Positions 21,474-33,613 of a DNA stretch of 64,000 nt are shown here, in pieces. The stretch lies in contig CAIOJR010000023.1 of NCBI GenBank assembly GCA_903858685.1, positions 1-64,000 on the forward strand, given 5' to 3'. Source of the stretch: an uncultured Caulobacterales bacterium. Lineage in GTDB: Bacteria > Pseudomonadota > Alphaproteobacteria > Caulobacterales > Caulobacteraceae. Under the pieces are notes generated by a model that worked only from the letters and a program-made list of their open reading frames with translations, was not told where the DNA came from and did no database searches. Made by a program: the position numbers and the translations under genes. Numbering within the stretch: position 1 is the stretch's first letter; every line of letters starts with the position of its first letter.

Positions 21474-21572
21474 TTTTCCGACGAAATGGACACCGAATCG
21501 TGGCAGAAAGCGCTCTAATTATATAGGGTTATGAGGAACGTCCGACCCAAACAGATCGGATCTTCCTCTAGG
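21474..21572. repeat. bipartite degenerate intergenic repeat, copy 2 (module 2 at 21474-21518, module 1 at 21541-21572)
   Basis: ttttccgacgaaatggacaccgaatcgtggcagaaagcgctctaa and tccgacccaaacagatcggatcttcctctagg align with the two modules at 9339-9433; module order reversed. Confidence 0.6.
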
Positions 21573-22146
21573 GTGAAACGCGCGTCACCTGAGCCGACTT
21601 TCGGGGCCTGAAATAGTATTTTTCGCTGAAATTGATCCCATTGGGAAGCACGACGCTGACCGGAGACGTGTAGGCGTAGGTGGCTTCCGACATAATGACG
21701 CTGTCGCCTGGACTGGAGATCAACCCAGTCGGCACAGTGATCGCGGCTGCCGTCGTATAGGGCGACATTCCCTGGGCGTAGCTCCAGTCCACCAGCACCT
21801 GACTCGATGCGTTTTCCGTAATGCTGGTGATGCGCATGGCCAGAGGTGTGGTCGCCATCGGCCACATCATGGTGTTTCCCACGGCGGCAATATCGGCCAG
21901 GTCAGTATTGTGCAGAATTGTGACCTGAGCCGAAAGGTCGCCAATCGTGGAGGCCACATGGCTCACCCGGCGCTGCGCCATCAGGCCCTGACCCAGTTCA
22001 CCCAGCCCGAAATAGACCAGGATGAGCAGGGGCGCTACGAGGGCAAACTCCAGGGCGGAGGCGCCGACAGTGTCGCCAACAAACCGCCGGACCGCAGCGG
22101 TGATCCGTGTGCGAGCGCACGCGCCTTGCGAATCAGGACGCCACAT
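21568..22146 (-). CDS. TadE/TadG-like pilus assembly protein
   Basis: 'RRFVGDTVGASALEFALVAPLLILVYFGLGELGQGLMAQRRVSHVASTIGDLSAQ'; start set at MWRPDSQG. Confidence 0.85.
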   Translation of the reverse strand: MWRPDSQGACARTRITAAVRRFVGDTVGASALEFALVAPLLILVYFGLGELGQGLMAQRRVSHVASTIGDLSAQVTILHNTDLADIAAVGNTMMWPMATTPLAMRITSITENASSQVLVDWSYAQGMSPYTTAAAITVPTGLISSPGDSVIMSEATYAYTSPVSVVLPNGINFSEKYYFRPRKSAQVTRVSP

Positions 22147-22690
22147 AGGGCTCGTTTCGGAAGGCGATAGTGGACACAATCAGAGCTGATCCGTTGGAAA
22201 GAGGTTGCAACCCCCCATTCAGAAACGGGGTGAACAGGCCCCACTGATAATAGGCGCGCACCAGAACAATATCGCCCGCCGTCCCCAGATTGAACTGCAG
22301 GGCCGACGACTGAAACTGCCCATTGGCGACCGGGGACGTCACGGCAATGTTCTGAAAGTTGGTGTAGGTTCGCACGTCGACCGACAGGTTGTTCGGGCAG
22401 TCTGTCGTCAGCCAGCCCATATTGGCGCAAATCTTCTGTGTGAAGGTCGCCGTACTGGCGCCGCCAGCGGTCTGCAATTGGCCTGTTCTGACCATTCGCA
22501 CCACCTTCGCCGTCGCATTGTCGAGCGTGGTGGACACCGTATAGACCAGAGCGAGTTCAAAAACCGCCATCAGAATAAAGATGAACGGCGCCGCGACCAG
22601 GGCGAACTCAACCGCTGTCGCGGCCTTGCTGTCCCGACAGAATGCGCCCGCGAGGCGACCGCCGCCCTTGATCATGGCCCTGATATTCAT
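22133..22690 (-). CDS. TadE-like pseudopilin/pilus assembly protein
   Basis: 'CRDSKAATAVEFALVAAPFIFILMAVFELALVYTVSTTLDNATAKVVRMVRTGQLQ'; overlaps the next gene by 14 bp. Confidence 0.85.
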   Translation of the reverse strand: MNIRAMIKGGGRLAGAFCRDSKAATAVEFALVAAPFIFILMAVFELALVYTVSTTLDNATAKVVRMVRTGQLQTAGGASTATFTQKICANMGWLTTDCPNNLSVDVRTYTNFQNIAVTSPVANGQFQSSALQFNLGTAGDIVLVRAYYQWGLFTPFLNGGLQPLSNGSALIVSTIAFRNEPYVAS

Positions 22691-23743: not shown

Positions 23744-23911
23744 ATGTCTAAGTTTGTAACGCGCTTCCTCAAGGACGAATCCGGCGCCACGGCTATCGAA
23801 TACGGCCTGATCGCCGCTCTGATCGCTGTCGTCGTCATCGGCGCCGTAACCGCGGTCGGCACCAATCTGAGCACGACCTTCAACCACATCGCTTCCAACG
23901 TTTCGCGCTAA
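23744..23911 (+). CDS. flp: Flp family type IVb pilin (major pilin candidate)
   Basis: 'MSKFVTRFLKDESGATAIEYGLIAALIAVVVIGAVTAVGTNLSTTFNHIASNVSR' with G|ATAIEY cleavage motif. Confidence 0.95.
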   Translation: MSKFVTRFLKDESGATAIEYGLIAALIAVVVIGAVTAVGTNLSTTFNHIASNVSR

Positions 23912-24011: not shown

Positions 24012-24048
24012 TGGGGCCGCAACGTAACCACGTTGCGGCCTCAATCTT
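24012..24048 (+). terminator. strong intrinsic terminator downstream of flp
   Basis: tggGGCCGCAACGT-aacc-ACGTTGCGGCCtca then atctttt; 11-bp perfect core extended to about 14 bp with one G:U. Confidence 0.8.
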
Positions 24049-24079
24049 TTCGGACAGGCCTTAAGGTGGGGATCAGCCC

Positions 24080-24244
24080 TTGATCGGTTTCATCCGCGCT
24101 TTCTGGACCAACCGCTCAGGCGCGACCGCCATGGAATACGGCATGATCTGCGCCGTCATCGGCATTGTGCTGCTTGGGGCGCTTTCAAGGCTTTCAGGTG
24201 TTGTCTGGAATGTCATGACAGCGGTATCGAATGCTATCCATTAG
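24080..24244 (+). CDS. second Flp-type pilin (54 aa, TTG start), not in the ORF track
   Basis: Manual translation: (M)IGFIRAFWTNRSGATAMEYGMICAVIGIVLLGALSRLSGVVWNVMTAVSNAIH*; G|ATAMEY motif; in-frame stop at 24062 leaves only TTG; purine-rich aaggtgggga upstream. Confidence 0.75.
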   Translation: MIGFIRAFWTNRSGATAMEYGMICAVIGIVLLGALSRLSGVVWNVMTAVSNAIH

Positions 24245-24329
24245 GTTTTAAACGCTATTTTCAGCAAGATTTCCTAGCCTGACCTATCTCGGGCCACACA
24301 GCGGCTCGAAACGTCATGTCGCAGGCCCC

Positions 24330-24866
24330 ATGAATCCGATTTCTTTCGTTTTGATCGCCGTATTTCCGGCCATTGTCATCGTGGCGGCTCTGCGCGACGC
24401 GACAACCATGACCATTCCCAACGGGTTGTGCCTCACAGGTCTTCTGGCGTTCGCCCCGGTCGCCATGCTCGCGCACATGCCATTCAACGCGATCGGCCTG
24501 TCCGCCGGGGTCTGCATCAGCTGCCTTGTCGCCGGCATGGCGATGTTCGCGGTCCGATGGATCGGCGGCGGCGACGCCAAGCTTCTGGCAGTCTGCGGCC
24601 TGTGGATGGGATGGCCGTTGCTCATGACCTTTTTGTTCTGGACAGCGGTTGCGGGCGGCGGTCTGGCCATAGGCCTGCTCATTGTGCGCAAACTGGCGCG
24701 GAGCGACGGCTCTCAGTTCGCAAAGCGATCAGGTCCGGCCTGGCTGACCCGATTATTGCAACCGGACGGCGACATTCCCTACGGTGTGGCAATCGCGGTC
24801 GGGGCCATAACCGCCTATCCAACGGCGCCTGTATTTCAGTTGCTGCAGACTGCAGCCCATTATTAG
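24330..24866 (+). CDS. cpaA: prepilin peptidase CpaA/TadV
   Basis: 'AALRDATTMTIPNGLCLTGLLAF', 'GGGDAKLLAVCGLWMG', 'DIPYGVAIAVGAI' (A24 family). Confidence 0.92.
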   Translation: MNPISFVLIAVFPAIVIVAALRDATTMTIPNGLCLTGLLAFAPVAMLAHMPFNAIGLSAGVCISCLVAGMAMFAVRWIGGGDAKLLAVCGLWMGWPLLMTFLFWTAVAGGGLAIGLLIVRKLARSDGSQFAKRSGPAWLTRLLQPDGDIPYGVAIAVGAITAYPTAPVFQLLQTAAHY

Positions 24867-25046: not shown

Positions 25047-25940
25047 ATGGGTCCGAAGAGGATCATGGTTCTGGCACTTGCAGGGGTCGCGGCGATTCTA
25101 TGCCTGATCCTTTTGCGCACCCTGTCGGCGCCGAAGGATCAAAAGCCGGTGGTGACGCAACAGGCGATCTCGGGTCCGGCCATGGTCTATGTGGCGGTCG
25201 CGGGGCACGACCTGTCTGTCGGCGACCGCATCAGCGAAAATGACGTGACCTGGCAGCCCTGGCCCGCGACCAATGTGAATCCGGCCTATGTCACCAATGG
25301 GGCGGCCGCCAGTTTCAACGCCGGACGCGGCGTGGCGGGCGCCGCGGGCGGCGCGTTGAACGCCGCTGACTCCATGAAGCAAAAGGCTCTGGGCGTCGAA
25401 GGCACGCCTGGCGCCGTGTTTCTGGGCGCCGTGATCAAGGAAGCGATCCGACAGGGCGAACCAATGGTTCTGGACAAGGTGGTTCGCTCAGGCCAGTCGG
25501 GCGTCATGGCGGTCCGGCTTGAACCGGGCATGCGCGCCATGGCCGTTCCCCTCTCTCCGGAAAGTTCAGCGGGCGGTTTCGTCCTGCCGGGCGACCATGT
25601 CGATGTCGTCCAGACACGCAAGATGGACGGCAATCAGGTGACATCCAACACGGTGATGCGCAACGTCCGCGTCCTGGCGATCGATCAGAATACAAGCCCC
25701 GCGACCAAAGGCGCCGCCACACTGGGCGCCACGGCGACGCTGGAAGTGTCTCCCGCCCAGGCGGAAAATCTGGTGCTGGCGCGCGCCCAGGGCGACCTTA
25801 CCCTGGTGCTGCGGTCCTATGCCGATACAGGCGGCCCGACCGTGGACAGCATGCTCAAACAGGCTCAGGCCCTGATGGCGCCTTCGGTCGTCAAGGTCTA
25901 CCGCAACGCCACGGCGACGGAAATAAAGGTGGCCCACTGA
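25047..25940 (+). CDS. cpaB: Flp pilus assembly protein CpaB/RcpC
   Basis: 'VYVAVAGHDLSVGDRISENDVTWQPWP' SAF-like, 'GFVLPGDHVDVVQTRK', adjacent to cpaC. Confidence 0.92.
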   Translation: MGPKRIMVLALAGVAAILCLILLRTLSAPKDQKPVVTQQAISGPAMVYVAVAGHDLSVGDRISENDVTWQPWPATNVNPAYVTNGAAASFNAGRGVAGAAGGALNAADSMKQKALGVEGTPGAVFLGAVIKEAIRQGEPMVLDKVVRSGQSGVMAVRLEPGMRAMAVPLSPESSAGGFVLPGDHVDVVQTRKMDGNQVTSNTVMRNVRVLAIDQNTSPATKGAATLGATATLEVSPAQAENLVLARAQGDLTLVLRSYADTGGPTVDSMLKQAQALMAPSVVKVYRNATATEIKVAH

Positions 25941-27640
25941 TGTCGGCCCTCCTTCCCACAGGCGCCATACGGAGCCTCGCCGCCGCGACCCTCCTGACCC
26001 TGGCCGGCCTGAGCGTCGCTTCGAACGTCTTGGCCGCGGACCCAATCCTGGCCGGTTCGCCGATACGGGGTCGGGAGGCGCAGCAATCCCGCACCCCGCA
26101 CAGCGTGTCTGGCGCGGACATCACCTATTCCGACACGCCAAACGCGTCCGGCGTGGCGACGCCCGTGACCGACCAGACCGTCCGCGTCGATATCGGCGGA
26201 GGCGGCGTCAATCGCACCTTGTCCCTGCCGCGCGGCAAGTCTGCTGTGATTGAACTGCCCGTGGACGCCCGGGATGTGGTTGTGTCCAATCCCAAGGTCG
26301 CTGACGTGGTTCTGTCCACCCCACGGCGCATCTATGTGGTGGGCCAGACCTCCGGCCAGACCGACGCTGTGTTCTTTGACGGATCAGGGCGCCAGCTGTT
26401 ACGGCTGGATGTGCGGGTCGATCAGGACGTGTCCGCCCTCGCCCAGACCCTGAACCACATTCTCGTCGGCTCCCAGATCCGGGTCGAGTCGGTCAACGAC
26501 AATGTCGTCCTGTCCGGTCAGGTGCCCGACGCCGCTTCCGCTGACAAGGCGGTCCGGGTGGCCGAAAGCTTCGTGGCCAAGCCCGAAAACGTGTTGAACA
26601 TGTTGTCAGTGGCCGGTCGCGAACAGGTCATGATCAAGGTGCGCGTGGTGGAGGTGAACCGCACAGTCACCAAGCAATTGGGATTCAATCTCAACGAATT
26701 GCTCGGACAAGCGGGGCAGAACCGGTACAGCTTCGGCATGACGCCCACCTATGGGGTCAATGGATCGCTGCTCGGCGGCGCCACAGCGGGTTACCAGATC
26801 AATACGACCACCCAGCCGATCATGACCCAGCTCTGCAACAGCGCCACCCAACCGGTCGGCGCAATCTGTAATATTGTCGTCCACGGCACCGGGACAGTCA
26901 CCAACGGAAACACCGCGACCGTCCAGAGCACGGCGGGGTCGACCGGCGTCAATGCCGCCACCGCCATGATCCAGGCCTTTGAGAGTGCAGGTCTCGTGCG
27001 CACCCTGGCCGAACCCAACCTGACGGCGATTTCCGGTGAAAGCGCCAAGTTCCTGGCCGGCGGCGAGTTTCCAGTCCCCGTCGGCGTCGACAATACCGGC
27101 CGCGTCTCGGTCGAGTTCAAGCAGTATGGCGTGGGCCTGGGCTTCACGCCGATCGTGCTGTCCAATGGTCGCATCTCGCTCAAGGTGTCGACAGAAGTGT
27201 CTGAGCTGAGCTCCACCGCGGGGTTCACCCTGGGCACGGGCACGAGCTCGACCCTGGTGGTTCCCGGTCTGAATGTGCGCCGCGTTGAAACCACGGTGGA
27301 GCTTCCCTCCGGCGGCGCGACCATGATCGCCGGGCTGATCCAGAACGTGACCAAGCAGACGCTCGACACCCTGCCCGGCATGATGGAGCTGCCGGTGATT
27401 GGCGGCCTGTTCCGCTCACGCGATTTCCTCAACAACCAGAGCGAACTGGCGGTCATCATCACACCCTATATCGTCAAGCCGGTCAGCCCCGATCAACTGG
27501 CCACGCCGGGCGATGGTCTGGTGATCGCAAATGACTTTGAAACCGACCTGTTGGGTAAATTGAACAAGAGTTCCGGAAAGACGGCCTCAACCACCGACAG
27601 CAAGACCTACCAGGGTCCATTCGGCTACGTGGTGGAGTAG
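25940..27640 (+). CDS. cpaC: type II/IV secretion secretin CpaC/RcpA
   Basis: N-domain 'VVSNPKVADVVL', BON-like 'NDNVVLSGQVPDAASADKAVRVAES', secretin 'MIAGLIQNVTKQTLDTLPGMMELPVIGGLFRSRDFLNNQSELAVIITPYIV'. Confidence 0.95.
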   Translation: MSALLPTGAIRSLAAATLLTLAGLSVASNVLAADPILAGSPIRGREAQQSRTPHSVSGADITYSDTPNASGVATPVTDQTVRVDIGGGGVNRTLSLPRGKSAVIELPVDARDVVVSNPKVADVVLSTPRRIYVVGQTSGQTDAVFFDGSGRQLLRLDVRVDQDVSALAQTLNHILVGSQIRVESVNDNVVLSGQVPDAASADKAVRVAESFVAKPENVLNMLSVAGREQVMIKVRVVEVNRTVTKQLGFNLNELLGQAGQNRYSFGMTPTYGVNGSLLGGATAGYQINTTTQPIMTQLCNSATQPVGAICNIVVHGTGTVTNGNTATVQSTAGSTGVNAATAMIQAFESAGLVRTLAEPNLTAISGESAKFLAGGEFPVPVGVDNTGRVSVEFKQYGVGLGFTPIVLSNGRISLKVSTEVSELSSTAGFTLGTGTSSTLVVPGLNVRRVETTVELPSGGATMIAGLIQNVTKQTLDTLPGMMELPVIGGLFRSRDFLNNQSELAVIITPYIVKPVSPDQLATPGDGLVIANDFETDLLGKLNKSSGKTASTTDSKTYQGPFGYVVE

Positions 27641-27646
27641 GAACAC

Positions 27647-28375
27647 ATGCCCCATTCATCCTCTGCTCGACGGCGCCTGACCCTTTCGGCCATCGGCCTT
27701 GCGTTCGCGCTGGGCGCTTGCGCCTCGACCGACATGTCACACACCAGGCCCAAGCCCGTAGACCCGACCCACCCGGCGGGCGCTGCGCCCACCGCTCTGG
27801 ATCAGTTCAAGGCGGCGACCCGGCCTTCGGAGAACAGGATTGCTCTGGCGCCGCATGCGCACGGCGTCCTTTCGGACGCACAGCGTTCGGCCCTGATGCT
27901 GCTGGCCCATCAGCTCGACGAGAATGACAGCCAGATTGTGGAGATCAAGATCTCCAGCAAGGAGCCGGAGACCGGCGACGCAGCCCATACGGCGCGTTCG
28001 GCGCTCGACTATCTGCAGTCGATCGGCCTTGCGACGGAGCGGCTGAAACTGGGGCGCTTTGAGTCCGATGTCGCCAGCGCGCCGGTCGTGGTCAGCTATC
28101 ACGGCGTTGAGGCCTATGGCCCGGATTGCAACAAGAACTGGGACAATCTCAGCGCTACGGGCGCCAACAGCGTGTCCAAGCATTTTGGCTGCGCCCAGGC
28201 GGCCAATCTGGCGGCCATGGTCGCCGACCCGCGGGATCTGATCAGACCTGCGCCGGAGGGGCCGTCCGACGCGACCCGACGCGGCGTGGTGCTGGGCAAG
28301 TATCGCAAGGGCGAATCGAGCTCCACGGTAAAGGATGAACAGGCCTCCGGCGCTGTTTCTCAGACGGTGAAATAG
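27647..28375 (+). CDS. cpaD: CpaD family pilus biogenesis lipoprotein
   Basis: Lipobox 'LALGAC'-type 'AFALGACAST'; 'YHGVEAYGPDCNKNWDNLSATGANSVSKHFGCAQAANLAAMVADPRDLIRP'. Confidence 0.92.
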   Translation: MPHSSSARRRLTLSAIGLAFALGACASTDMSHTRPKPVDPTHPAGAAPTALDQFKAATRPSENRIALAPHAHGVLSDAQRSALMLLAHQLDENDSQIVEIKISSKEPETGDAAHTARSALDYLQSIGLATERLKLGRFESDVASAPVVVSYHGVEAYGPDCNKNWDNLSATGANSVSKHFGCAQAANLAAMVADPRDLIRPAPEGPSDATRRGVVLGKYRKGESSSTVKDEQASGAVSQTVK

Positions 28376-28378
28376 GTC

Positions 28379-30073
28379 ATGGCGATCGCCGAGCGAGACG
28401 CATACCCCCTGCATGACGACCTCGAAGACGAGGACGTCCCCCTCACCTTCGCGCCGATGGATGGCAAGCGGCCAAACCCCGACGCCCTGGACATGTTCGG
28501 CTTTCCAGCTGAAGACGGCGCGCCGGACGATGGCGCGCGCTTCTTCGCACCGCAAGGCACAGCCGGGCCGGCGGCGCCCTCCGAACCTGACGCCGCGCCT
28601 TCGGATATTGAGCTGGACATCTGGTCCAGGCTGAAGAATGACGACGTGACGGATCTGGACACAGCGCCTGAAGATACGCGCGCCGCCCGGGCCCTTGCAG
28701 CGGCAGTAGAGCCCGAGCCGGCGCAACACGAGCCCGCTGCCGTGGCCGATGTCGGGCCTGAACCGAAGACCGGGACCATTGGAGAAGACGAGTTCGCACC
28801 CGTCCTCGCCCCGCCCCCGGCCGCCGCCCCGACCGCCGGCGCGATGATCCTGCCGCCGGATTCCGAACTGGGCGACCTGCTGGCGCCGCGCATTGCGATC
28901 CATCTGTTCTGTCGCAACGCTGAAACCGCCGCCGCCGCCACACGGGCCGCCGCAGACCGGCGCATGCAACGCGCCACGCCCAAGGTCGTGCGCGGCGGTA
29001 TTTCCGAAGCCATCGCCATCTATCAGGAACAGCCGACTCCCCCGCTCTTGGTGATCGAGTGTCTTGAAAGCCCGCGTGAGCTGCTGGCCAAGCTCGAAGC
29101 CCTGGCCGAGGTCTGCGATCCGTCGACCAAGGTGGTGATCATCGGCGTTGCCAATGATATCGCGCTCTATCGCGAGCTGATGCGTCGCGGCGTCAGTGAA
29201 TATCTGGTGCCGCCGATTGATCCGCTGCAATTGATCCAGACCATAGCGGGATTGTACGCCGACCCCGCCTCCGCCTTTGTTGGACGCACATTGGCCTTTA
29301 TCGGGGCCAAGGGCGGCGTGGGCGCCTCGACCGTGGCCCATAATGTGGCCTACGCCCTGGCCGAACAGATCGAGGTCAACACGGTGGTCGTGGACTACGA
29401 TCTGCCTTTTGGCACGGCTGGCCTCGACTTCAACCAGGATCCGCTCCAGGGCATCCACGACGCGCTGAGCCAGCCAGACCGGCTGGACCCGGTATTGCTC
29501 GACCGGATGACGGCGCGCTGCACCGAACGCCTCAGCCTGTTCGCCGCCCCCGCAAGCCTTGAGGAAACCTACGAGATCGATCCGGAGGCCTATGAGGAGG
29601 TCTTCAACTCCATTCGCACGACAGCGCCCTTTGTCGTGCTCGATCTGCCCCATCAGTGGACCGGCTGGATTCGCCAGACCCTGCTGACGTCCGACGACGT
29701 GATCATTGTGGCGACGCCGGACCTGGCCTCGCTGCGCAACGCCAAGAACATGCTGGACCAGATTCGCAAGGTCCGACCCAATGACGCGCCGCCAAAGCTG
29801 GTGCTGAACCAGATGGGCATGCCCGGACGGCCGGAAATCCCGGTCAAGGAGTTCGCCAAGGCTCTCCAGATCGAACCTTCGCTGGTTCTGCCCTTTGATC
29901 CGAAACTGTTCGGCGAGGCGGCCAATAACGGACAGATGCTGGCGGAGCTGAACCCCAAGGCCAAATCCGTCGAAGGCCTGCTGCAGTTCGCTCAAGGGTT
30001 GGCCCGACGCGAGGCGCCCGCGGCGCCGATCAAGGCCCGCTCTCTGCTCGAACGCCTCCTGAAGCGCAACTAG
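28379..30073 (+). CDS. cpaE: CpaE/TadZ-family ATPase with long acidic/Pro-rich N-terminal extension
   Basis: Deviant Walker A 'FIGAKGGVGASTVAHNVAYALAE', receiver-like 'VVIIGVANDIALYRELMRRGVSEYLVPPIDPLQLI'. Confidence 0.93.
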   Translation: MAIAERDAYPLHDDLEDEDVPLTFAPMDGKRPNPDALDMFGFPAEDGAPDDGARFFAPQGTAGPAAPSEPDAAPSDIELDIWSRLKNDDVTDLDTAPEDTRAARALAAAVEPEPAQHEPAAVADVGPEPKTGTIGEDEFAPVLAPPPAAAPTAGAMILPPDSELGDLLAPRIAIHLFCRNAETAAAATRAAADRRMQRATPKVVRGGISEAIAIYQEQPTPPLLVIECLESPRELLAKLEALAEVCDPSTKVVIIGVANDIALYRELMRRGVSEYLVPPIDPLQLIQTIAGLYADPASAFVGRTLAFIGAKGGVGASTVAHNVAYALAEQIEVNTVVVDYDLPFGTAGLDFNQDPLQGIHDALSQPDRLDPVLLDRMTARCTERLSLFAAPASLEETYEIDPEAYEEVFNSIRTTAPFVVLDLPHQWTGWIRQTLLTSDDVIIVATPDLASLRNAKNMLDQIRKVRPNDAPPKLVLNQMGMPGRPEIPVKEFAKALQIEPSLVLPFDPKLFGEAANNGQMLAELNPKAKSVEGLLQFAQGLARREAPAAPIKARSLLERLLKRN

Positions 30074-30086
30074 GGGGTCGGGGTCC

Positions 30087-31607
30087 TTGTTCGGCAAGCG
30101 TAGCGCATCATCAGCTCAGTCCGACGTTCGTGTCGCGGCGCCTCCGCCTGCGCCTGCCGCCGGCCCGGATATCGCCACACGGCCGCAGCGCACTGAGCCT
30201 GCAAAGGGCGCGGCGCCTGCCGAAGCCGCCAGTCGGCCCAAGACCGCCGCCCGCGCCACGCCCGGCTTCGAGCAGATCCGCGCCGCCCAGGTCAGCGCCG
30301 GCGCCGGACCGATCACGGAAATCGTTCGCGAGCAGAGCGAATATTACCACGCCACGAAGACGACCATCTATTCGGCGCTTCTGAACACCATCGATCTTGG
30401 TCAGCTGGCCCAGCTCGACACCAAGACCGCCAGCGAGGAAATCCGCGATATCGTTGCGGAATTGGTGGCGATCAAGAATGTATCCATGTCCGCCTCGGAG
30501 CAGGAACATCTGGTTCAGGACATCATCAATGATGTGCTGGGCTATGGTCCACTGGAGCCCCTGCTGAAGCGCGACGACATTGCCGACATCATGGTCAATG
30601 GCGCAGGTCGCGTCTTCATTGAAGTCAACGGCAAGGTTCAGCTGACCAATGTGCGCTTTCGCGACAATGCACAGCTGATGAACATCTGCCAGCGCATCGT
30701 CAGTCAGGTGGGACGGCGCGTGGATGAAAGCTCGCCCATCTGCGATGCGCGTCTGCCGGACGGCAGCCGGGTCAATGTCATTGCGCCGCCCCTGGCGCTG
30801 GACGGCCCGACCCTGACCATCCGGAAGTTCAAAAAAGACAAGCTGACCATGAAACATCTGGTCGATTACGGATCGATCAGTTCCGAAGGCGCCCGGGTGC
30901 TGGGCGTGATCGGGGCCAGCCGCTGCAATGTGGTGATCTCGGGCGGCACCGGATCAGGCAAGACGACCCTGCTCAACACCATGACCGCCTTCATTGACCC
31001 GACGGAGCGGGTCATCACCTGCGAAGACGCCGCCGAACTGCAATTGCAGCAGCCGCATGTGGTGCGTCTGGAAACCCGTCCGCCCAATCTTGAGGGACAG
31101 GGCATGATCACCATGCGTGATCTTGTGAAGAACTGCCTGCGGATGCGTCCCGAACGGATCATTGTGGGCGAAGTGCGCGGACCCGAAGCGTTCGACCTGC
31201 TGCAAGCCATGAACACAGGCCATGACGGCTCGATGGGCACCCTGCACGCCAACAGCCCGCGTGAGGCGATCAGCCGGATCGAATCGATGATCACCATGGG
31301 GGGTTACGGCCTTCCGTCCAAGACGATCCGGGAAATGATTGTCGGCTCGATCGATGTGATCATCCAGGCCGCCCGCCTGAGAGACGGCTCCCGGCGCATC
31401 ACCCATGTGACGGAAGTGCTGGGCCTGGAAGGGGATGTCATCATCACCCAGGACCTGTTCGTCTATGACATGACCGGCGAGGACCGCGAGGGCAAGATTG
31501 TCGGCCGTCACCGCTCAACCGGCATAGCGCGCCCGCGTTTCTGGGATCGCGCGCGTTATTATGGGCTGGAGCGGGAATTGGCGGACGCTCTGGATCAGGC
31601 CGAATAG
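30087..31607 (+). CDS. cpaF: CpaF/TadA secretion ATPase
   Basis: '[39 protein letters not shown]', '[38 protein letters not shown]'; TTG start likely. Confidence 0.97.
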
Positions 31608-31608
31608 A

Positions 31609-32598
31609 ATGGATGCTGGCTCGATCCTTCCCATGGCCGCCGCCCTGCTCGGCTTTTTCGCCGTCGCTGCAGTCGGTTGGGTGCTGGTCGGGGATGAACA
31701 GACCTCTGCGCGCGCCAACAAGCGCATCGGCGCCGTGGCGACCGACAAGAAAAGTGAAGGGGCACGGGCAAAGACCGCCGCTGAAAACCAGACACTGCGA
31801 CGCAAACAGATCCTTCAGAACCTGAAGACCCAGGAAAAGCAGGACCGCAAGGCCAAGCTTACTCTAGAGTCGCGCCTGATTCAGGCCGGGCTGAACTTTT
31901 CAGTGCAGAACTTCTGGATCGGTTCCGGCGTGATCGGCGCTGTCGCCCTTCTGGGCTGCCTGATTTTTCGGCTCAACTTTCTCGTGGCGCTGGGCATCGG
32001 CTTTACCGCCGGGCTGGGCCTGCCGCGCTGGCTGATCGGCTCTATGGCCAAGAGCCGTGCGGCCAAGTTCACATCCGAATTTCCCAACGCCATTGACGTG
32101 ATCGTGCGCGGGGTGAAGTCGGGTCTGCCGCTGCACGACTGTCTGAAGCTGATTTCGACCGAAAGTCCGGAGCCTCTGGCGACCGAGTTCCGCAAACTGC
32201 TGGAAAACGCCGCCGTCGGGCTGAGCATCGAGCAGGCGACAGAAAAGATGTATGGCCGCATGCCGACCTCGGAGGTGCGCTTTTTCGCCATTGTGCTGTC
32301 CATCCAGCAGAGGACGGGCGGCAATCTGGCCGAGGCGTTGAATAATCTGTCCGTGGTCCTGCGCTCCCGCAAACTGCTGCGTGAAAAGATCAAGGCCCTG
32401 TCCGGGGAAGCGGTGGCGTCGGCCTTTATCATCGGCTCGCTGCCGCCGGGCATCATGACCCTGGTCACCCTGACGACGCCAAAATACATGATCCCGCTCT
32501 TCACTGACCCGAGGGGCCATGTGGTGTTGGGGATCGGCGCCCTGATGGAGGGCCTCGGCATCTTCGTCATGCGCAAAATGATCAATTTCAAGTTCTGA
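31609..32598 (+). CDS. tadB: TadB, type II secretion F family
   Basis: 'FTSEFPNAIDVIVRGVKSGLPLHDCLKLIS', 'SIQQRTGGNLAEALNNLSVVLRSRKLLREKIKALSGEA'; start set at MDAGSILP. Confidence 0.93.
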   Translation: MDAGSILPMAAALLGFFAVAAVGWVLVGDEQTSARANKRIGAVATDKKSEGARAKTAAENQTLRRKQILQNLKTQEKQDRKAKLTLESRLIQAGLNFSVQNFWIGSGVIGAVALLGCLIFRLNFLVALGIGFTAGLGLPRWLIGSMAKSRAAKFTSEFPNAIDVIVRGVKSGLPLHDCLKLISTESPEPLATEFRKLLENAAVGLSIEQATEKMYGRMPTSEVRFFAIVLSIQQRTGGNLAEALNNLSVVLRSRKLLREKIKALSGEAVASAFIIGSLPPGIMTLVTLTTPKYMIPLFTDPRGHVVLGIGALMEGLGIFVMRKMINFKF

Positions 32599-32608
32599 GG
32601 GGCCGCAC

Positions 32609-33613
32609 ATGGAAGGCCTGCTGCAGATATTTGAACCCCAGAACATCCTGTCGATCATTGTGGCCGCGATCGTCTTCGCAACGATCGTGACCCTCGCCAC
32701 GCCTCTGCTTCAGCGCGACAGACTGACCAATCGCATGAAGTCCGTGTCCAACCGGCGCGACGAGCTGCGCCGTCAGGCCCGGGCCCAGCTGCGCCATGAC
32801 GCGCCAGCCACCATTCGACAGACGGACGAGGGCGTGATCAAGCGGATCGTGGAACAGCTGCAACTGTCACGACTGCTGGAAGACCCCAAGGTGGTGGACA
32901 ATCTGGCGCAAGCAGGCTTTCGCGGACCAAGACCCATCTCGACCTTCTACTTCTTCCGCTTCGTCACCCCGTTCCTGTTCGCCGGTTTCGCCATCTTCTA
33001 CCTGTTTGTGCTGCATGTGATGGGCTGGCCCACAGTGACGCGGATGTGCGCCACCGTGACAGCCTTTGTCGCCGGCTTCTACGCCCCCAATGTCTATCTG
33101 CAGAACATGATCCAGAAGCGCCGCGAGGCGATTGTCAGCGCCTTTCCGGACGCGCTGGACCTTTTGCTGATCTGTGTGGAATCGGGCATGTCCATCGAGA
33201 TGGCGATCCAGAAGGTGGCCGGTGAAATCGGCTCGCGCTCCATAGAACTGGCCGAGGAGCTGACGCTTCTGGCGGCGGAATTGTCCTATCTGCCGGATCG
33301 TCGACTGGCCTATGAGGGCCTGTCGCGGCGAACCAACTATCCCGGAATCAAGGCGGTCACCACCGCCATGACCCAGGCGGAGCGCTATGGCACTCCACTC
33401 GGTTCGGCCCTTCGGATCATGGCGAAGGAAAACCGGGAAATGCGCATCGCCGACGCTGAGCGGATCGCCGCCCAATTGCCCGCCAAACTGACCGTTCCAA
33501 TGGTTCTGTTCTTCCTGCCCGTGCTGTTTCTGGTCATTCTGGGCCCGGCCGTCATCAAGGCCACCGACTCAGGCGCCAAGCAGCAACAGCAGGAACGGAT
33601 GCAGCACCACTAG
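32609..33613 (+). CDS. tadC: TadC, type II secretion F family
   Basis: 'AIVSAFPDALDLLLICVESGMSIEMAIQKVAGEIG', 'AMTQAERYGTPLGSALRIMAKENREMRIADAERIAAQLPAKLTVPMVLFFLPVLFLVILGPA'. Confidence 0.95.
   Translation: MEGLLQIFEPQNILSIIVAAIVFATIVTLATPLLQRDRLTNRMKSVSNRRDELRRQARAQLRHDAPATIRQTDEGVIKRIVEQLQLSRLLEDPKVVDNLAQAGFRGPRPISTFYFFRFVTPFLFAGFAIFYLFVLHVMGWPTVTRMCATVTAFVAGFYAPNVYLQNMIQKRREAIVSAFPDALDLLLICVESGMSIEMAIQKVAGEIGSRSIELAEELTLLAAELSYLPDRRLAYEGLSRRTNYPGIKAVTTAMTQAERYGTPLGSALRIMAKENREMRIADAERIAAQLPAKLTVPMVLFFLPVLFLVILGPAVIKATDSGAKQQQQERMQHH

Follow-up and report, generated by a model that had tools for sequence, protein, structure and literature searches.

Between the main pilin gene flp1 and the prepilin peptidase gene cpaA of an uncultured Caulobacterales bacterium, we found flp2, a genuine gene whose start codon is unusual, in a DNA stretch of 64,000 nucleotides that is called the window here. 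Its product is supported as a second prepilin of the already known Flp/Fap type IVb (Tad) pilin family, since the family score, the cleavage site, the retained Glu19 and Tyr20, syntenic orthologues and purifying selection all argue for it. In Caulobacter, Tad pili serve as a model system for how cells sense surfaces and how phages enter, and they are usually viewed as one main pilin with larger minor pilin-like proteins at the tip. The explanation that we favour, with a probability of roughly 0.55, is that flp2 encodes a functional, fast-evolving second Flp, which would be expressed by read-through, processed by CpaA and sparsely co-assembled with the main pilin.

The flp2 gene and its neighbourhood

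The gene flp2 (24080..24244, plus strand) encodes 54 amino acids, (M)IGFIRAFWTNRSGATAMEYGMICAVIGIVLLGALSRLSGVVWNVMTAVSNAIH, comprising a leader of 14 and a mature part of 40 residues. The frame is closed at its 5' end by an in-frame TAA (24062-24064). Alternative in-frame starts were sought between this stop and the cleavage site, and the TTG is the sole ATG, GTG, TTG or CTG codon there. The sequence-only reading had proposed this frame with the same limits, the TTG as its only plausible start and a second Flp-type prepilin as its product, and all three proposals held.

Against the Pfam family Flp_Fap (PF04964), Flp2 scored 41.6 bits (E=1.1e-10), above the curated cut-off of 32.2, and a search of all six frames of the genome gave three matches over this cut-off, Flp2 being one of them (E=1.1e-9). 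The short leader ends in glycine and is followed by the A-x-x-x-E-Y pattern of Flp pilins; in the cleavage region SG/ATAMEY (24116..24139, plus strand) cleavage is expected after G14, and Glu19 and Tyr20 are kept. No extra domain is present. The NCBIfam search returned a useful match for neither Flp1 nor Flp2, and a TadE-type profile did not match Flp2 at E<=0.001. The identity between Flp2 and Flp1 within the window genome is 31%, and the polar G-T/N-N patch of the helix is swapped in Flp2 for hydrophobic residues and Trp. Two details of the earlier description need correction. The tail is not short, as the mature protein has 40 residues compared with 41 in Flp1, and of the two Trp assigned to the mature part only W43 lies there, while W9 belongs to the leader.

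The upstream gene flp1 (23744..23911, plus strand; 55 aa, 14-aa leader) encodes the main Flp/PilA prepilin, with 75.0 bits to Flp_Fap and a match to the PilA structure chain 8u1k_A of C. crescentus (E=5.7e-9). The linkage of flp2 to the Tad/cpa genes is close: cpaA (24330..24866, plus strand; Peptidase_A24, 62.4 bits) starts 85 nt 3' of flp2 and is followed by cpaB, cpaC, cpaD, a cpaE-like gene, cpaF and two T2SSF platform genes (25047..33613, plus strand). The closest named records to CpaC are from uncultured Caulobacterales MAGs (70-74% identity). On the minus strand lie two genes for TadE-like minor pilins, candidates for CpaJ/CpaK, at 22133..22690 (TadE, 37.2 bits) and 21568..22179 (38.9 bits). 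They overlap and are transcribed away from flp1, and the former has also a sub-threshold Flp_Fap match. The third Flp over the cut-off in this genome (G000:C87:32286-32420; L047 1730-1933) closely resembles flp1 and stands alone, distant from the cpa genes.

Orthologues and selection within the genus

A syntenic flp2 orthologue occupies the flp-cpaA gap in three of the five other genomes found for the same genus (MAGs G001, G003 and G004), each with a 14-residue leader as in the window copy, and the gap of G005 holds a more diverged third Flp copy. All four orthologues, the window copy included, have L38, S39, W43 and N44 in common, none of which occurs in Flp1. With 40-43% identity, the window copy has diverged furthest among them. 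Aligning this gap in relatives and calculating dN/dS had been suggested as a check of the frame; the frame is kept in all three MAGs and dN/dS ranges from 0.14 to 0.53, with 0.14-0.34 among the relatives and 0.27-0.53 between the relatives and the window. Of the three codon positions the third is the most changed, and pN/pS was below the neutral simulation in six of six pairs (p from <0.01 to 0.04, for four sequences). Yet measured against the window, flp2 has a dN of about 0.57 and flp1 one of 0.13-0.14, an approximately four-fold difference. Hence, flp2 is under purifying selection, but loosely, and it is fast-evolving.

In the tree, all five second pilins from this genus cluster with weak support (65/90) where long branches meet. 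As to a single ancient origin of second pilins, the starred branches of the tree force at least three label changes, in an alignment of 58 columns in which long branches meet.

Terminator, start codon and flp loci of Caulobacteraceae

The two pilin genes are separated by an intrinsic terminator of flp1 (24012..24050, plus strand), composed of a 14-bp stem, TGGGGCCGCAACGT-AACC-ACGTTGCGGCCTCA, and the run ATCTTTT. The energy of this hairpin is -26.5 kcal/mol compared with a shuffle mean of -3.7; a plain terminator scan showed no excess over shuffles (2 vs 2.0). The hairpin is kept in the relatives with compensatory changes, in which both sides of the stem are altered. Only 29 nt lie between its last T and the TTG, and they are largely taken up by the Shine-Dalgarno sequence, so that read-through of the flp1 transcript would be the simplest source of flp2 mRNA, and probably is the source. 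A promoter overlapping the hairpin or within flp1 may serve instead, and a transcript begun upstream of the hairpin would still run into the terminator. In the spacer between flp2 and cpaA (24245..24329, plus strand), a terminator search found none; an alignment of four genus members revealed a conserved TAAACG element just 3' of flp2, which is a possible candidate for the cpaA promoter.

The window genome has the TTG where the aligned start codon of the orthologues in the three MAGs is ATG. TTG is also rare among the divergent second pilins of our survey, with ATG near the expected place in 36 cases and TTG in three. However, the TTG by itself need not signify feeble translation, because it is preceded by a strong, extended Shine-Dalgarno sequence, TAAGGTGGGGATC (24062..24074, plus strand), whose duplex with the 16S tail (-13.7 kcal/mol) ranks in the top 0.5% of the 1595 TTGs in the window. 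A low output had been predicted from the TTG. The low output itself is plausible, but it would be owed less to the start codon than to the terminator that separates the two genes, and from the placement of the terminator a low abundance of Flp2 in pili is likely.

Our survey covered the region 5' of cpaA at 110 loci of Caulobacteraceae, and pairs under 70% identity were counted as divergent. More than one flp was present in 62 loci and a single flp at cpaA in 48; divergent pairs occurred in 42 of the 110, spread over 10 genera. Of 46 adjacent divergent pairs, 41 begin with the better-scoring, conserved copy. The median gap between the flp genes is 91 nt in divergent and 223.5 nt in near-identical pairs (p=4e-9, uncorrected for kinship). 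Terminators lie no more than 60 nt ahead of the next flp start in 26/41 divergent but 3/24 near-identical pairs, and in the genomes outside the set on which the idea was framed in 18/27 and 2/16, respectively. Since 16 of these 18 divergent pairs belong to genus g15 and the proportion beyond g15 is 2/10, placement close behind a terminator characterises g1, g11 and g15 rather than the whole family. The general rule that each divergent flp2 follows a terminator by no more than 60 nt failed outside some genera. In some g22 relatives, the two pilin genes are spaced by about 28 nt that contain no terminator. Three or four flp genes are present in some g15 genomes (L063, L262, L260, L263), with a divergent copy amid near-identical ones, and in locus L059 two Flp frames (750-1088 and 1530-1862) continue past the helix into unrelated sequence, perhaps as frameshifted duplicates.

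That sister genera keep a second Flp separated by a terminator suggests filaments of mixed composition and a simple control of the subunit ratio. We tentatively consider, as an unlikely extension, that several Caulobacteraceae lineages have separately put a fast-evolving Flp behind the terminator of the main pilin gene, where leakage would set the ratio of variant to main pilin in each filament. If so, the changing exposed surface of the variant could diversify adhesion or phage binding and leave the bulk filament unaltered. A literature search, with most subscription journals outside its coverage, found no earlier report of a second Flp behind a terminator in Caulobacteraceae. The flp1-terminator-flp2 arrangement is also carried by cultivable relatives, with genomes of the g15 and g11 type, and this layout is the part most worth an experiment.

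Possible roles of Flp2 and comparison with known pilins

Judged from its sequence, Flp2 is most likely a low-dose variant subunit of the filament. RNA polymerase starting from the flp1 promoter would mostly halt at the terminator, yielding abundant flp1 mRNA, and the fraction reading through would carry flp2, to be translated from the TTG with the aid of the Shine-Dalgarno sequence. CpaA would be expected to cut off the leader at the intact site. The mature helix, in which both Glu19 and Tyr20 are preserved, could then co-assemble sparsely with the main pilin and place other side chains in an exposed position, above all Trp43, which is invariant in the genus.

Flp2 might also be a real pilin that is not a filament subunit but stays in the inner membrane or contacts the machine or a sensor kinase, thereby tuning assembly or surface signalling. 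The low expected dose and the replaced polar patch are consistent with such a role, and recycled PilA of C. crescentus has itself been proposed to signal via PleC (PMC11067988). We regard it as rather improbable, as selection for assembly is the simplest cause for the retention of leader, cleavage site, Glu19, Tyr20 and mature length. Somewhat less probable still is a degenerating duplicate of flp1 that has lost its ATG in the window lineage and is drifting. The TTG, the lowest Flp score among the four genus orthologues and a dN/dS of up to 0.53 fit such a fate, and together with the identity of 40-43% they make an early decay of the window copy possible; against drift stand the intact frame with every Flp hallmark, the strong Shine-Dalgarno sequence and the four residues common to the orthologues but absent from Flp1.

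The sequence-only reading had offered a minor, tip or priming pilin, and low-abundance minor pilins are indeed required for initiation in some type IV pilus systems (PMC12607857), in keeping with the low expected dose. That Flp2 initiates each filament is nevertheless improbable and finds no support next to two TadE-like genes (21568-22690): the role is assigned to CpaJ, CpaK and CpaL in C. crescentus, 48 of the 110 loci manage with a single flp at cpaA, and the sequence is fast-evolving rather than constrained. A variant body subunit is favoured over a tip pilin because Flp2 has no extra domain and the length of the main pilin, and because the tip role is attributed to CpaJ, CpaK and CpaL in C. 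crescentus and TadE-like genes are neighbours here. A functionless chance ORF, suggested by the short frame and the TTG, is ruled out by the genome-wide Flp_Fap match (E about 1e-9) and the syntenic orthologues.

Returning to the variant subunit, the closest comparison is PilA of C. crescentus (PDB 8u1k, 8u2b), which shares with Flp2 the 14-residue leader, the G/A site, Glu19 and Tyr20 and a single helix of about 40 residues. Assembly of the C. crescentus pilus requires the core hydrogen bonds formed by Glu19 and Tyr20, and one of the residues in contact with phage PhiCb5 is residue 43, an Asn in the host strain (PMC11067988). By ungapped alignment, Trp43 of Flp2 would fall on this exposed phage-contact position. 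Unlike the main Flp/PilA pilins, Flp2 combines this Trp with a TTG start and a placement behind the flp1 terminator. CpaJ, CpaK and CpaL, to which tip and priming roles are assigned in C. crescentus, are like Flp2 expected to be low-abundance pilin-like partners of PilA, but they are larger, and Flp2 has no TadE match.

Second Flp pilins are known from other Tad systems. In Aggregatibacter, as here, the second Flp gene is flanked by flp-1 and by that of the prepilin peptidase, and flp-2 has been listed with the genes that, when lost, leave fimbriae reduced or altered (PMC12905792); this gene is gammaproteobacterial, and the likeness is one of arrangement. In Haemophilus ducreyi, the tandem genes flp1-flp2-flp3 head the tad operon and their products are 50-80% similar to one another (PMC3201912). 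Bdellovibrio also has a second Tad-linked Flp, and knock-out of either flp1 or flp2 abolishes predation, so that the two are non-redundant (PMC5430801); its Flp2 lacks the cleavage glycine that is kept in Flp2 of the window. The two pilins of Agrobacterium, on the other hand, have been described as interchangeable.
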